NCBI RefSeq assembly: GCF_009864005.1
Contig: NZ_WEZQ01000019.1
Coordinates: 124,001-188,000, forward strand
DNA from: Furfurilactobacillus milii
Lineage (GTDB): Bacteria > Bacillota > Bacilli > Lactobacillales > Lactobacillaceae
Length of the DNA: 64,000 bases
Direction: 5' to 3'
Shown: in pieces, positions 28,374-64,000 of the stretch
Layout of the letters: each line of letters opens with the position of its first letter
Numbering within the stretch: position 1 is the first letter of the stretch
Translations under genes and position numbers: made by a program
The notes under the pieces: generated by a model
Databases searched by the model: none
What the model saw: only the letters and a program-made list of their open reading frames with translations
What the model was told of the DNA's origin: nothing

Positions 28374-28646
28374 TATTAAAGATGTTTGAAAACGAATAAT
28401 GCATTGAACAAGAGAGTAGTGAATCGTGGTTTTATAGCAAGCTGGTGTTGATGGAAGGCCGGTAAACGACGTGTAGCGAAAGTAGCTTGTTGGCAGGTTT
28501 GCTGAATCCGCTTGAGTGCTGAGCGTTAGTAGGTGAATTCGGGTCACGTCCGTTAAACCGTGCTTGAGTGGGGTAGCAATACCCAATTTAGGTGGTACCG
28601 CGATAAATCGTCCTAATTTCCGTATGGAAATTAGGGCGTTTTTTCG
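28374..28646 (+). promoter_or_regulatory. T-box leader of valS
   Basis: tRNA-sensing leader in the 418-base gap before valS. The T-box sequence AGGTGGTACCGCG is at 28590-28602. GAGAGTAG near 28410 starts stem I. The terminator CGTCCTAATTTCC / GGAAATTAGGGCG (28609-28638) is followed by TTTTTT. Uncharged tRNA-Val should stabilise the antiterminator. Valine is inferred from the downstream gene; I could not place the specifier codon with certainty. Confidence 0.93.
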
Positions 28647-28726: not shown

Positions 28727-31387
28727 ATGGGAACTAAAGATTTACCGACTAAATATGATCCACGTGCCGTTGAAAATGGTCGTTATCAAAAATGGCTGGA
28801 TGCAGGATTATTTAAGCCATCTGGTGACAAAAAGGCCAAGCCTTATTCGATTGTTTTGCCACCACCAAACGTTACAGGAAAGCTTCATTTAGGACACGCC
28901 TGGGATACCGCCTTGCAAGATATGCTAGTTCGTTACAAACGAATGGAAGGCTACGACACATTGTGGGTTCCTGGTATGGATCACGCTGGCATTGCCACGC
29001 AAGCAAAGGTTGAAGCCCGCTTACGTGAACAAGGCATCTCTCGTTACGATCTTGGCCGCGAGAAGTTCGTGGAACAAGTTTGGGACTGGAAGGATGAATA
29101 TGCCGCTACTATTCATAAGCAGTGGGCTAAGTTAGGTCTGTCCATGGATTACAGCCGTGAACGGTTTACCCTTGATGAAGGCCTTTCAAAGGCTGTTCGT
29201 AAGGTCTTCGTCGACTTGTACAACAAGGGCTTAATTTATCGTGGTGAATACATTATTAACTGGGATCCACAAGCCCGCACAGCGTTGTCTGATATTGAAG
29301 TTATCCACAAGGACGATAAGGGTGCTTTCTACCACGTTAAATATCCATTCACGGATGGCACGACGTATGAAGGTAAGGATTACATTGAAATTGCCACGAC
29401 TCGTCCCGAAACAATGTTTGGTGACGTTGCTGTTGCTGTTCACCCGAGTGACGAACGGTATAAGGAATTAGTCGGCAAGCACATCAAGGTACCATTGGTT
29501 GACCGCGAGATTCCGATTATCGCGGACGAATACGTTGACCCTGAGTTTGGAACGGGGATGGTTAAAATCACGCCAGCTCATGACCCAAACGACTTTCTGG
29601 TAGGTAACCGTCATAATCTGAAACGGATCAATACCATGAATGAGGATGCAACGTTAAACGAAAATGCCGGTAAGTATAACGGGATGGATCGTTTTGACGC
29701 TCGTAAGGCCATTGTTCAAGACTTGCAGGACGGTGGCTGGATGCTAAAGATTGATCCAATCGTTCACTCAGTTGGTCACTCAGAACGGACCGGTGTGCAA
29801 GTTGAAGCCCGTCTTTCAACCCAGTGGTTTGTTAAGATGAAGCCATTGGCAGAACAAGCATTGGACCACCAAAAGACAGATGACAAGGTCACGTTCTGGC
29901 CTTCACGTTTTGAAGATACCTATGAACAGTGGATGAATAACGTTCATGACTGGGTTATTTCCCGTCAACTATGGTGGGGTCACCGGATTCCGGCTTGGTA
30001 CAATAAGCAAACTGGTGAAACGTATGTTGGCATGGAAGCACCGAAGGACGAAGAAAACTGGACTCAAGATCCAGATGTTTTGGATACGTGGTTTAGTTCC
30101 GGCTTGTGGCCGATGACAACTATGGGCTGGCCAGACACTGATAATCCAGATTTCAAACGGTATTTCCCAACTGATGATTTGGTTACTGGTTACGATATTA
30201 TTTTCTTCTGGGTATCCAGAATGATGTTTGAATCAGTCGAATTTACTGGCAAACGGCCGTTTAAGAACGTGCTGATGCATGGTTTAATGCGGGACAATCA
30301 AGGCCGTAAAATGAGTAAGTCACTCGGCAACGGGATTGACCCAATGGATGTCATCGATAAGTATGGTGTCGATGCCATGCGCTGGTTCTTGGCTAACGGT
30401 TCAACGCCAGGTCAAGATGTTCGTTATGATACGACCAAACTTGATGCGGCGTGGAATTTCATTAACAAGATTTGGAATGCTAGCCGTTACGTCATTATGA
30501 ATTTGGGCGACATGGAGAAACCAGTATTGCCAGACAAAGCAAACTGGAATTTGGCGGACCGGTGGATTTTGAGTCGGTTGAACCAAACGGTCGCTGACGT
30601 TCACCGCCTGTTCGATAAGTTTGAATTTGGTGAAGTTGGTCGTGCACTTTATAATTTCATTTGGAATGACCTGTGTGACTGGTACATTGAAATGACCAAG
30701 GAAGTGCTTAACGGGGATGACGAAGCCGCTAAGAAGAACACTCAAAATGTCTTGGGTTATGTTCTTGACCAGACGCTACGTTTGATGCATCCGTTGATGC
30801 CGTTCGTAACGGAAGAACTATGGCAAGACATGCCGCATGAAGGTGAATCCATCATGGTGGCGGACTACCCAGTTGTTCATGATGACTTTGATGATGCCAA
30901 AGCTGAAACTGACATGGGCCGCTTAATTGAGTTGATCACTGCGGTTCGTAATATTCGTGGTGAAGCTAATGCACCGATGAGTAGTGCCGTTGAACTGTTG
31001 ATTAAGACCAATAACCCAGAGCTGAAGACACTGTTTGAAACGAACCGTGATTTTGTGGATCGGTTCTGTCACCCGAGTGACTTGCAGATTGGACCAGATG
31101 TTGTGGCGCCAAAGCTGGCCATGTCAGCCATCATTTCTGATGCGGAAGTTTACATTCCGTTAGCTGAACTGATTAACTTGGATGATGAAATTGCACGTCT
31201 TGAAAAAGAAGTCGCCAATTTGCAGAATGAAGTAACCCGTTCCGAAAAGAAACTGGGTAATGAACGCTTCGTCGCTAATGCGCCAGAAGCAGTTGTCGCT
31301 GAAGAGCGAAGTAAGCAAGCTGATTGGCAACAAAAACTGACGGCAGCCACTAGCCGTTTGGCAGAGGTTAAAGCGAGCCGTAATTAA
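28727..31387 (+). CDS. valS: Valyl-tRNA synthetase
   Basis: 886-residue class I synthetase that charges tRNA-Val and edits misactivated threonine. HLGH at residues 53-56 ([16 protein letters not shown]) and KMSKS at 528-532 are the ATP-binding signatures. The editing domain lies between, with [18 protein letters not shown]. The C-terminus is a coiled coil (about 815-880) as in bacterial ValRS. AAAGGAA precedes the ATG. It is controlled by the T-box leader upstream and ends at a strong terminator. Confidence 0.98.
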
Positions 31388-36169: not shown

Positions 36170-36198
36170 TTGACAGAGTGTGTAAAGAACACTATAGT
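36170..36198 (+). promoter_or_regulatory. Promoter of the amino-acid transporter operon
   Basis: Perfect TTGACA, 17 bases, TATAGT, in the 515-base gap after mreD. Confidence 0.85.
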
Positions 36199-36204
36199 GT
36201 TGCT

Positions 36205-36593
36205 AACTTAAAAATATGAATGAAATGACAATGAACAGAAGAGTAGATGACAGGCTTGTTCAGAAAGTAATCGTTGCTGTGATGATTACCATGACTGTTG
36301 TTGAAACACATCTGTGAGTCGTTTGGCTGAATTTATGAAGTAGGTTAAACCGGTCGGTCCGTTACCCCAAGGAGTTTATAAACAAACTCGTTGAGTCAGT
36401 TACTGTGAAGTAATTGAAAGCTTGAGGTGGAACCGCGCGAACACGCCCTCTTTAGTCATTATAATGACTAAGGAGGGCGTGTTTTTGTTTATAAACTCCG
36501 TGAGTTTATCGTCGTGAGGCGGTAGAAAAATGAGGTGGCACCACGTTAACCAACGTCCTCTAACTAGCAATTAGGCTAGTTAGGGGATTTTTT
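36205..36593 (+). promoter_or_regulatory. T-box leader with two antiterminator/terminator modules
   Basis: Stem I starts near 36235; the base ACAGA/TCTGT encloses AGTAGATGA on one side and GAAACACA on the other, which would fit a CAC (His) or ACA (Thr) specifier. Module 1 has T-box GAGGTGGAACCGCG (36424-36437) and terminator ACACGCCCTC / GAGGGCGTGT (36441-36482). Module 2 has GAGGTGGCACCACG (36532-36545) and terminator TCCTCTAACTAGC / GCTAGTTAGGGGA (36556-36587) plus TTTTTT. Only 45 bases separate the modules, too few for a second stem I. Confidence 0.85.
36371..36499 (+). repeat. Inverted repeat around T-box module 1
   Basis: GGAGTTTATAAAC (36371-36383) and GTTTATAAACTCC (36487-36499) are perfect 13-base inverted copies flanking the first antiterminator and terminator. 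The second copy can also form a local hairpin ATAAACTC-CGT-GAGTTTAT. Confidence 0.75.
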
Positions 36594-36653
36594 GTGTCAA
36601 ACGCAATGCGTTGTCATTAATTTGAAAAGTTGTTCATCATAGGAGGGGTTAAC

Positions 36654-37301
36654 ATGTCGTTAACATACGTCAATCAGATTTTGCCATCATTATTTAGTGG
36701 GGCATGGATGACCATTCGTATTTTCTTTTGGACGTTGGTTGGTGCCTTACCACTAGGTGTATTAGTTAGTATGGGACTGCGGTCACGTTTTTCACCGATT
36801 CGTTGGGTGTTAAACTTTTACGTTTGGCTTATGCGGGGGACGCCGCTATTGCTTCAATTGATGTTTGTCTTTTACGGACTTCCAGACGTTAATATTGTGT
36901 TTGCCCGTTATCCCGCAGCTCTGTTCGCCTTTATCTTAAACTACGCGGCTTATTTTGCTGAAATTTTCCGCGGTGGCTTTGCCGGTATTGACCACGGTCA
37001 GTATGAGGGTGCTCAAGTGCTCGGATTGACCTATACCCAAACATTGCGAAAGATCATATTGCCACAAGTGGTCAAAAGCGTTATCCCCGCTGTTGGTAAT
37101 GAAGTGATTAACTTGGTCAAAGATTCATCGCTGGTTTATGTCATTGGGTTAGGTGATCTGCTGCGTGCCGGCAATGTGGCATCTGCTAGGGATGTCACAT
37201 TGGTTCCGCTGATCTTAGTGGGGATTATCTATCTTTTATTGACGTTGGTTTGTACTTACGCCTTACGTGGATTAGAGAAACACTACAGTTACTACCGATA
37301 G
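36654..37301 (+). CDS. Amino-acid ABC transporter permease
   Basis: 215-residue inner-membrane subunit of the His/Glu/Gln/Arg/opine permease family. About five membrane segments are visible. The EAA loop EGAQVLGLTYTQTLRKIILPQVVKSVIPAVGNEVINLVKDSSL (about residues 120-162) contacts the ATPase. TMRIFFWT-type start and MRGTPLLLQLMFVFYG are family motifs. AGGAGGGG precedes the ATG at 36654; the open frame back to 36630 contains it. It is the first gene of a permease-ATPase-binding protein operon under T-box control, so the substrate is probably the amino acid sensed there. Confidence 0.93.
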   Translation: MSLTYVNQILPSLFSGAWMTIRIFFWTLVGALPLGVLVSMGLRSRFSPIRWVLNFYVWLMRGTPLLLQLMFVFYGLPDVNIVFARYPAALFAFILNYAAYFAEIFRGGFAGIDHGQYEGAQVLGLTYTQTLRKIILPQVVKSVIPAVGNEVINLVKDSSLVYVIGLGDLLRAGNVASARDVTLVPLILVGIIYLLLTLVCTYALRGLEKHYSYYR

Positions 37302-37313
37302 GAGGGACAAACT

Positions 37314-37952
37314 ATGCTGGAATTAAAAAACATTAACAAATCATTTGCACAACGCAAAATTTTAAATAATTTTTCAATGATCGTTCCTGACCAACAAATT
37401 GTGAGTATCGTCGGTCCCTCTGGTGCCGGCAAAACGACCTTGTTACGGTGCATTGCTGGATTAGAACGACCAGACTCGGGCAGCTTTCTTTTAGACGGTC
37501 AACCGTTCGATCCAGTTGAGGATCGTGGCAGCGAACGTAAAATCGGTGTTGTATTTCAAGACTTTAATTTGTTTCCTAATCTAAGTGTGGTCGACAACAT
37601 CATGTTGGCGCCCAAAATGGTAACAGGCCAGACGACAAAACAGGCCCGTGAACAAGTTGAGCCGTTGGTTGACTCGCTTGGATTGACTCGAGTCGTTAAA
37701 CAGTATCCATTTCAGTTATCAGGTGGTCAAAAACAGCGTGTTGCAATTGCGCGAGCTTTGGCTATGGAACCGGCTATTTTATGTTATGACGAGCCAACGT
37801 CAGCATTGGACCCAACGCTTCGCGATACGGTTGGCCAACTCATTTTAGACCTCAAAAAACGAGGGATTACCCAGATTGTTGTCACACATGATCAGCAGTT
37901 TGCGGAAAAAATTGCTGATCAGGTTGTGACAGTTAAACCACTGAATGCCTAA
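37314..37952 (+). CDS. Amino-acid ABC transporter ATP-binding protein
   Basis: 212-residue ATPase of the polar amino-acid importer. Walker A GPSGAGKTT is at residues 34-42, the signature LSGGQKQR near 132-139, Walker B ILCYDEPTSALDP near 153, and the switch His in VVTHD. GGAGGG precedes the start, 12 bases after the permease. At 212 residues it is somewhat shorter than GlnQ-type proteins (about 240), mainly at the C-terminus, but all motifs are intact. Confidence 0.95.
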   Translation: MLELKNINKSFAQRKILNNFSMIVPDQQIVSIVGPSGAGKTTLLRCIAGLERPDSGSFLLDGQPFDPVEDRGSERKIGVVFQDFNLFPNLSVVDNIMLAPKMVTGQTTKQAREQVEPLVDSLGLTRVVKQYPFQLSGGQKQRVAIARALAMEPAILCYDEPTSALDPTLRDTVGQLILDLKKRGITQIVVTHDQQFAEKIADQVVTVKPLNA

Positions 37953-37995
37953 GGTCATGTTAGTTTGACCAGGGATAGTGGGGAGGATGAAGATA

Positions 37996-38853
37996 ATGAT
38001 TCGAAAACGAACAATAAGCAGGTATCGACGATTAGCGGCATTAGTTGTCGTCATGCTAATGGGCATTTTAGTTTTGAGTGGGTGTGAGAGCGTTGCTACC
38101 CGTGCGGATCAGCAAGATACCTGGCAACATATTAAACGCCGTGGAACGGTCGTTATTGGTGTTGATGATAGCTTTGTGCCGATGGGTTTTCGCGAAAAAA
38201 ATGGGAAATTGGTTGGCTACGATGTAGACTTAGCAAAGGCCACGTTTGCCCAGTATGGTCTCAAAGTAGATTTCCAAACGATTGACTGGTCCATGAAGGA
38301 AACGGAATTGCGGAATGGGACGATTGATGCAATCTGGAATGGCTATACCATAACGCCTCAACGGGCAGCCAAAGTGGCGTTTTCCCGACCATACCTCAGA
38401 AATCGTCAGGTGTTGGTAACTAAGAGAAAACAAAACATCCGACGATTTTCAGATATGAAGGGCAAAATCTTAGGCCTGCAAACTGGATCGTCAGCTCAAA
38501 CGTTAGTTAATCAAAAGCCTAAGCTATTGAAACAATATATCAAAGGATCGCCGATAACATACGACACGTTTAATGATGCCTTTATTGATCTGAACGTTAA
38601 CCGTATTCAGGGATTATTGATTGATCAAGTATATGCAGGCTATTACGTTAAGCACGAACCCAATCCGTCTGCTTATCGAACGATTGTTGACGATTTTGCC
38701 GGGGAAGACTACGCGGTTGGCTTACGTAAGGGGGATGTCACTTTACGCAAAAAGATCAACCAGGCCTTTGTTAAACTTGCTAAGAATGGGCAACTCAGTC
38801 AGATTAATCACAAATGGTTCGGGCAGGATTCAGATTCATTAATTCAGAAGTAG
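37996..38853 (+). CDS. Amino-acid ABC transporter substrate-binding lipoprotein
   Basis: 285-residue extracellular binding protein of solute-binding family 3. The signal peptide ends in the lipobox LVLSGC with Cys30 as the lipidated residue, so it is anchored to the outer face of the membrane. The domain starts RRGTVVIGVDDSFVPMGF and KLVGYDVDLAKA. TIDAIWNGYTITPQRAAKVAFSRPY binds the alpha-amino acid. GGGGAGG 9 bases upstream favours the ATG at 37996; ATG 37987 and GTG 37978 are in frame but overlap that site. Confidence 0.92.
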   Translation: MIRKRTISRYRRLAALVVVMLMGILVLSGCESVATRADQQDTWQHIKRRGTVVIGVDDSFVPMGFREKNGKLVGYDVDLAKATFAQYGLKVDFQTIDWSMKETELRNGTIDAIWNGYTITPQRAAKVAFSRPYLRNRQVLVTKRKQNIRRFSDMKGKILGLQTGSSAQTLVNQKPKLLKQYIKGSPITYDTFNDAFIDLNVNRIQGLLIDQVYAGYYVKHEPNPSAYRTIVDDFAGEDYAVGLRKGDVTLRKKINQAFVKLAKNGQLSQINHKWFGQDSDSLIQK

Positions 38854-63755: not shown

Positions 63756-63783
63756 TTGACATGCTAAGCGTGAATGCTATACT
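63756..63783 (+). promoter_or_regulatory. Promoter of the last T-box leader
   Basis: Perfect TTGACA, 16 bases, TATACT with TGC before it. Confidence 0.85.
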
Positions 63784-63789
63784 AAAAAA

Positions 63790-64000
63790 CAGTCAAGGAT
63801 ATGCAGCATGAACTTACTTTTAAGCGACGCTCTGGCCGGTGAAAAGGGCGAGGTAAGCGTGACTGTGCTCCCTTGAATAAAATTTGATAAACACTTGTTT
63901 TAAAACAAACACGCGACTCAGCGTTATGAGTGAGTGGTTAACGACAACATCGTTGCAAGCAAAGTGGTACCGCGGCCCTTGGCCGTCTTTGCAAGCGGCA
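63790..64000 (+). promoter_or_regulatory. T-box leader, probably of alaS (runs off the window)
   Basis: The T-box AAAGTGGTACCGCGG is at 63961-63975. Stem I is closed by CAAGG (63795-63799) and CCTTG; GCT just before the latter (GTGCTCCCTTG) would be an alanine specifier. The terminator begins at GTCTTTGCAAGC and is cut by the window end. Alanyl-tRNA synthetase often follows this helicase in lactobacilli, but the gene is not visible. Confidence 0.85.

Follow-up and report, generated by a model that had tools for sequence, protein, structure and literature searches.

How can a leader RNA with a single tRNA-binding domain govern two terminators in succession? This question is raised by a T-box leader of approximately 450 nt in Furfurilactobacillus milii (assembly GCF_009864005.1, contig NZ_WEZQ01000019.1), which lies between mreD (TIGR03426) and an amino-acid ABC transporter operon, downstream of a good promoter. 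The window analysed comprises 64,000 nucleotides (positions 124,001 to 188,000 of the contig), and all coordinates given below refer to it. We consider it probable that this leader is a histidine T-box built from one tRNA-anchoring platform (Stem I/II) and two serial discriminator-terminator modules, in which a switch helix with two competing right arms allows one tRNA to be read twice. For comparison, a sequence-based alignment (A1) of 128 distinct tandem leaders from Lactobacillaceae and Enterococcaceae was used; loci with identical cores, two loci without the F-box pattern (L148 and L282) and duplicates by left-arm/arm-2 pair were left out of it. The elements of the leader, with the evidence for each, are as follows.

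36228..36319, + strand: Stem I, the single tRNA-binding domain, approximate limits (RF00230 alignment)
36307..36309, + strand: specifier codon CAC (His) within GAA-A-CAC-A (sequence; CAC constant in relatives, preceding base variable)
36321..36364, + strand: Stem II and IIA/B, with the F-box ending in CGUUA at 36360-36364, approximate limits (RF00230 alignment)
36371..36384, + strand: shared left arm of the switch helix (repeat, arm pairing, covariation)
36384..36389, + strand: right arm 1 (AAACTC), forming the 6-bp helix LH1 with 36372-36377 (covariation, predicted folds)
36393..36417, + strand: module 1 purines GAG and Stem III-1 (covariation, A1 columns 47-73)
36424..36450, + strand: module 1 T-box sequence (UGGA) and antiterminator 1 (sequence, RF00230 alignment)
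36439..36484, + strand: terminator 1 (terminator and repeat searches)
36486..36499, + strand: right arm 2, forming the 14-bp helix LH2 with 36371-36384 and enclosing module 1 (repeat, arm pairing, covariation, predicted folds)
36502..36526, + strand: module 2 purines GAG and Stem III-2 (covariation, A1 columns 211-237)
36532..36560, + strand: module 2 T-box sequence (UGGC) and antiterminator 2 (sequence, partial RF00230 match; antiterminator pairs by eye)
36555..36588, + strand: terminator 2 (terminator and repeat searches)

The two T-box motifs, GAGGTGGAACCGCG at 36424-36437 and GAGGTGGCACCACG at 36532-36545, start 108 nt apart, and each is accompanied by its own terminator (36439-36484 and 36555-36588), just as the initial annotation had described. 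The terminator search returned three terminator-like hits, two of which represent the same hairpin, against a mean of 0.5 in shuffled sequences. Each module consists of a purine triplet, Stem III, a UGGN bulge with the antiterminator, and a terminator. The Rfam model RF00230 matched positions 36222-36453, from Stem I through module 1, with 105.0 bits, above the gathering score of 93. The covariance-model search that had been proposed as a check gave a divided answer for module 2: nothing was reported at the gathering threshold, and Rfam shows one T-box at the leader, while a partial match was present at 36489-36560 (30.1 bits, E 7.7e-5), reaching 33.8 bits (E 2.8e-6) when the segment 36460-36660 was scanned alone. 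This partial match covers only model positions 146-216, that is, Stem III and the antiterminator, and the spacing of 108 nt between the motifs is too short for a second Stem I, as had been recognized from the letters of the sequence. The locus thus possesses the second Stem III, T-box bulge and terminator of a partially tandem T-box, and lacks the second Stem I of a fully tandem one. A leader of this kind can pass as a single T-box in Rfam at the gathering score. A folding energy of -80.5 kcal/mol (z -11.1) was obtained for 36360-36531, a value equalled by 0 of 200 shuffles, and RNAalifold applied to A1 found Stem III in both modules, with every listed Stem III pair changed on both sides. Because the two terminators stand in series, two successive antiterminations would be needed, which would amount to two-stage control; with a single Stem I, the tRNA platform has to reach module 2 for the second decision.

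The inverted repeat flanking module 1 is the candidate for establishing this contact. The 13-base repeat is indeed exact (36371-36383 and 36487-36499), and a repeat search widened it to 19 nt at 95% (36368-36386 and 36484-36502). The left arm, GGAGUUUAUAAAC, is exactly complementary to GUUUAUAAACUCC in the window. It can pair in two ways: LH1 forms with the arm ahead of module 1, and LH2, which loops module 1 out, with the arm ahead of module 2. The two helices share the left columns 13-18 of A1 and are mutually exclusive. Part of the repeat, GTTTATAAAC, is its own reverse complement, so that the repeat also appears as a direct repeat. Since GUUUAUAAAC is palindromic, complementarity in this genome alone could be due to chance, and the matter is decided by relatives with different and still complementary arms. 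In these, the two arms change jointly, as in GGAGUUUAGUGAUA/UAUCACUAAACUCC, CAGUCUUUU/AAAAGACUG, GAAGUUAUUG/CAAUAACUUC, UGGUUGAAA/UUUCAACCA, and UAGUUUUAGA/UCUAAAACUA. Cognate arms paired with a mean energy of -15.3 kcal/mol compared with -7.7 kcal/mol for arms of other leaders or shuffled arms (117 leaders). With slightly wider limits, the values for cognate arms and arms of other leaders were -17.3 and -9.6 kcal/mol in 114 Lactobacillaceae, and -15.8 and -10.8 kcal/mol in 24 Enterococcaceae. The longest uninterrupted LH2 has a median of 12 bp; it reached at least 8 bp in 116 of the 128 leaders, compared with 25 of 128 shuffled arms and 164 of 640 random arm draws from the same leader set. 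Absence of the repeat from relatives, which would have spoken against it, was not observed, and the proposal that the repeat could loop out the first module and place Stem I next to the second is supported by conservation and compensatory change in relatives.

The covariation score of LH2 in A1 was 0.399, against 0.151 after shuffling (0/500) and 0.169 in the best slid register; 83.2% of the cells were paired, nine of the ten pairs had changed on both sides, and 256 double-change cells were counted compared with 98.5 in shuffled data. The corresponding values for LH1 were 0.398, 0.183 (0/500) and 0.163, with 82.5% of the cells paired. Shuffling ignores the relatedness of the sequences; the slid registers keep it. 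The four pairs that belong to LH2 only, and whose left side forms the loop of LH1, were paired in 78.2% of the cells and also covaried (0.288 against 0.088 shuffled, 0/500, and 0.117 in the best slid register), which indicates that descent from a copied arm 1 does not suffice to explain LH2. The distance from the helix to the purine triplet was 3 nt for LH1 in 125 and for LH2 in all 128 leaders, a constancy that is partly an effect of the alignment. Structure prediction of the alternative folds, also suggested at the outset, gave LH1 in the window's transcript ending at terminator 1 and LH2 once arm 2 was included. Comparative sequence analysis thus shows the parts of this arrangement, the mutual exclusivity of the two helices, their conservation and their covariation.

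Given these parts, the following course of events may be envisaged. While module 1 is being transcribed, the left arm and arm 1 would form LH1 and set discriminator 1 beside the platform, where uncharged tRNA-His would keep antiterminator 1 open. Once the polymerase has moved beyond terminator 1 and arm 2 has been made, the left arm would re-pair into the longer LH2. Module 1 would then form a closed, looped-out unit, and the same position, 3 nt past the helix, would be taken by discriminator 2, so that the tRNA end held by Stem I could be offered to antiterminator 2 for a second reading. LH1 and LH2 would in this way provide an equal docking geometry for both modules, first for module 1 and then for module 2, following the transcription of the arms. 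A need for two consecutive readings of uncharged tRNA-His would lower leakage of the transporter when histidine is plentiful. We infer the order of events, the re-use of the same tRNA and the tighter shut-off from the arrangement of the parts.

Several observations weigh against this reading. The single-sequence minimum-energy fold contained LH2 in 92 of the 128 leaders, LH1 in 30 and neither in six. RNAalifold applied to the whole of A1 proposed neither helix; it predicted pairing between the two invariant T-box motifs instead, which we take to be an artefact, and exclusive helices with shifting registers make the miss understandable. The longest uninterrupted LH2 was shorter than 8 bp in 12 of the 128 leaders, and L042, a leader with two modules, has no good LH2 by eye. 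Also, release of a tRNA from firm docking on antiterminator 1 might take longer than the seconds before terminator 2 is made. Apart from these points, a search for pairing between the left arm and arm 2 with wide limits yielded z-scores that were mostly insignificant among the leaders listed, including -0.7 for the window's own leader (L255). This signal was weak because the limits included Stem II and terminator sequence; narrow limits after the F-box gave the signal.

The initial annotation had left the specifier open between His (CAC) and Thr (ACA). The pattern GAA-N-CAC-R was present in 75 of 118 distinct leaders (115 from Lactobacillaceae and three from Enterococcaceae), with N being A in 48, C in 13, T in 12 and G in two of them, and in all of 24 further Enterococcaceae leaders. 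The pattern was missing from 43 leaders; in 21 of them, TC or CC comes after CAC-R in the stretch searched, and the pattern was too crude to classify the other 22. The variable base ahead of CAC in relatives leaves the CAC frame as the only one conserved and would destroy an ACA codon. Conservation therefore supports a histidine specifier; it does not support the threonine alternative, which was rejected. The gene cluster following the CAC leader encodes an amino-acid ABC transporter, for which the protein models do not establish histidine as the substrate.

The base N of UGGN was also surveyed in 138 distinct leaders. It was A in 83, T in 31, C in 23 and G in one of the first modules, and A in 79, C in 41, T in 14 and G in four of the second modules. 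Both modules in the window have UGG, followed by A and C, respectively, neither of which pairs with the discriminator base C73 of tRNA-His; tRNA-Thr and tRNA-Asn of this genome have A73 and G73. With such variation in both modules, N does not track C73. The TBDB article, in the part considered here, states that His T-boxes are exempt from discriminator matching, as the base can pair inside tRNA-His (PMC7778990). Sensing of two tRNAs by the discriminator base, with U73 at module 1 and G73 at module 2, was considered as a candidate and rejected, given the variation of N in both modules and A73 of tRNA-Thr.

A separate observation concerns UGGG, which is able to pair with C73 of tRNA-His. It was present in 8 of 28 single-class His leaders (L036, L039, L097, L103, L104 and L108-L110) and in 5 of 276 tandem modules, a contrast behind which clade effects are possible. 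For this set of 28, L042, L047 and L118 were left out, together with all leaders whose second motif lay less than 165 nt away.

Other explanations of the two modules and the helix between them have to be weighed against the twice-read tRNA. LH2 could act in active release, invading LH1, pulling module 1 apart after passage of the polymerase, freeing the tRNA end and resetting the leader, so that module 2 would be read by the next tRNA. The length of LH2 and its preference over LH1 in the predicted ensembles (a mean of 6.37 expected pairs compared with 1.63 over the 128 leaders) agree with such a role. An identical distance of 3 nt from helix to purines in the two modules fits positioning and is unnecessary for release alone; the release explanation, which overlaps with the one preferred here, appears unlikely to us. 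Still less probable is that module 2 works independently of Stem I and captures the 3' end of free, uncharged tRNA, with LH2 serving only to fold module 1 away or to protect the RNA. Module 2 alone is a complete discriminator, as this explanation demands. A free module, however, would respond to every uncharged tRNA whose end fits and could do without a fixed distance between helix and purines, and T-box specificity arises from the contact of specifier and anticodon in Stem I, according to the sections of a 2020 review that were consulted (PMC7583486).

Segmental duplication could have produced the pairing as a by-product, in which case arm 2 would be a copied arm 1, complementary to the left arm by descent and devoid of any role. 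The two modules are clearly related, and the LH1 hairpin is also carried by single-class His leaders (mean -5.2 kcal/mol, 28 leaders). Independent covariation of the extension into the LH1 loop is not expected of a copy of arm 1, however, and complementarity has been maintained across genera while the sequences changed, which makes this explanation quite improbable. T-boxes with two codons that read two tRNAs occur, as in C. acetobutylicum. The two modules of the present leader could likewise read two different tRNAs through the overlapping codons AAC, ACA and CAC, and the different ends of UGGN in the window (UGGA in module 1, UGGC in module 2), together with G73 of tRNA-Asn, would be in line with this. 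The overlapping specifier frames are not both conserved, however: with a variable base before CAC, neither AAC nor ACA is kept. Moreover, A73 of tRNA-Thr fits neither module, N varies in both, and discriminator matching is not used for His T-boxes in the TBDB passages cited above (PMC7778990). We regard the reading of two tRNAs as very improbable.

The arrangement of one Stem I and two modules is not confined to F. milii. Two T-box motifs at a distance of 100-130 nt were searched for, with the reversed pattern as a control. Matches came from 181 of the 397 genomes in the family, representing 18 of 40 genera, and from 47 of the 295 in the order, representing 21 of 75 genera; the reversed control gave no match among those listed in either search. 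A slightly stricter pattern occurred in 28 of 398 genomes of the phylum, the window's own included, and in 21 of 267 genera, with control matches in two genomes (G718 and G737). Several matches per genome were seen in G234 (five) and in G269, G352 and G382 (two or more). The second family is referred to as Enterococcaceae on the basis that the closest named locus was Enterococcus or Tetragenococcus for 24 of 24 loci (L231-L254).

The ABC transporter permease gene followed 136 of the 142 tandem leaders of Lactobacillaceae and Enterococcaceae. The six exceptions include L086 and L152, with less than 200 nt of sequence downstream, and L223, with no open reading frame in 400 nt. In L228, a binding-protein gene is located directly downstream in place of the permease. 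L148 (G030) has the tandem motif without the usual F-box and precedes an amino-acid permease-like gene of another type (below cut-offs), possibly a second specificity in Lactobacillaceae. In Enterococcaceae, the tandem His leader L242 lies before a single open reading frame, the first part of which corresponds to hisZ (below cut-off) and the second to hisG (above cut-off), as if the two genes were fused. A simple pattern applied to 70 loci with permease homologues classed 27 as tandem, 32 as single and 11 as neither; at least L042, L047 and L094, called single, look tandem by eye. A second T-box motif 273-352 nt past the first, as expected of fully tandem T-boxes, precedes the permease homologue in L087 and L089-L092. 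The surroundings of the leader in the window are as follows.

36170..36198, + strand: sigma-70-type promoter TTGACA-17-TATAGT, 11/12 consensus positions (consensus match only)
36641..36646, + strand: ribosome-binding site AGGAGG (by eye)
36654..37301, + strand: ABC amino-acid transporter permease (TIGR01726 HEQRo_perm_3TM, above cut-off)
37314..37952, + strand: ABC transporter ATPase (models below cut-offs; family clear)
37978..38853, + strand: ABC transporter substrate-binding protein (models below cut-offs; family clear)

Further T-boxes were present in the window. One at 28395-28618 (106.3 bits), with GAA-A-GUA-G, valine by that frame, lies ahead of the valyl-tRNA synthetase gene at 28727-31387, and no second module was reported for it in the RF00230 search. 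Another match, at 63781-63993 near the window end, scored 67.4 bits, below the gathering score. The genome has 26 T-box matches in total, module 2 counted.

Other genes lie downstream of 29 tandem T-boxes that come from different classes of the phylum, probably Clostridia and relatives. Of five representatives, DAHP synthase (L271) and trpD (L261) were identified above cut-offs, and trpE-like (L281), PaaK-like (L263) and sodium-symporter-like (L257) genes below them; the genes downstream of the remaining leaders were read by eye. In most of these leaders the left arm differs (GGGUAUCGG or similar), and each module is preceded by a right arm that contains GUAYC. Within fixed limits, cognate arms gave -14.6 kcal/mol compared with -11.8 for crossed and -12.3 for shuffled arms (28 leaders). 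When anchored on GUAYC, the left arm and arm 2 gave -19.5 kcal/mol for cognate pairs compared with -13.5 in 21 of the 29 leaders, the other eight having been dropped for want of the arm motif or F-box; this comparison is exploratory, as the anchoring was chosen after looking. The pairing reaches into the LH1 loop in several leaders by eye (L275, L278 and L281). No specificity was seen for the left arm and arm 1 in the GUAYC-anchored comparison (-10.6 versus -10.4 kcal/mol). A similar plan is thus suggested, less securely, for tandem T-boxes of other classes.

A T-box class with duplicated terminator-antiterminator elements was reportedly presented by Vitreschak et al. in 2008 in RNA. In the available passages of the 2020 review, this class bears the name 'partially tandem T-boxes' and its mode of action is called unknown (PMC7583486). 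The present locus, with one Stem I and two terminator/antiterminator units, is filed as a member. No description of the shared-arm switch helix or its covariation was found in the passages of the literature searched, the 2008 class paper and a 2009 review being beyond the reach of that search. As far as could be checked, the locus belongs to a known class, of which the shared-arm helix is an undescribed feature. A 2025 survey, in the portion considered, defines tandem T-boxes as complete sensor-plus-platform units and mentions T-box pairs before artQ, glnQ and artP of Bacillota, which may include leaders of the present kind (PMC12452182). Such fully tandem T-boxes resemble the locus in having two serial terminators on one operon, with a probably sharper response, and differ in being two complete T-boxes where the locus has only one Stem I. 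In specificity, operon kind and bacterial order, the locus corresponds to the histidine T-boxes of hisXYZ-type transporters in Lactobacillales, according to excerpts of two studies (PMC9413887, PMC2494555). The excerpts of the first, from 2022, report mostly single T-boxes, with tandem ones in five Enterococcus species (PMC9413887), and the passages seen of both describe no second discriminator module in Lactobacillaceae. Two-aptamer tandem riboswitches, as outlined in parts of PMC9481103, likewise shape the response by serial control; they duplicate or combine sensors, whereas the locus duplicates the decision module and keeps one sensor.

We propose tentatively, with somewhat less than even confidence, that partially tandem T-boxes across Bacillota follow one plan, with one left arm by the tRNA platform, a right arm heading each module, and the platform with its bound tRNA handed on during transcription. 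They would then form a serial proofreading riboswitch, acting on histidine in Lactobacillaceae and Enterococcaceae and on aromatic amino-acid genes in other classes. The competing-arm helix makes the mode of action of partially tandem T-boxes concretely and cheaply testable. If the proposed mechanism is true, the combination of right arm, discriminator and terminator would be a plug-in module for tighter RNA switches, and it would be shown how an RNA can re-use one bound ligand for two successive decisions.
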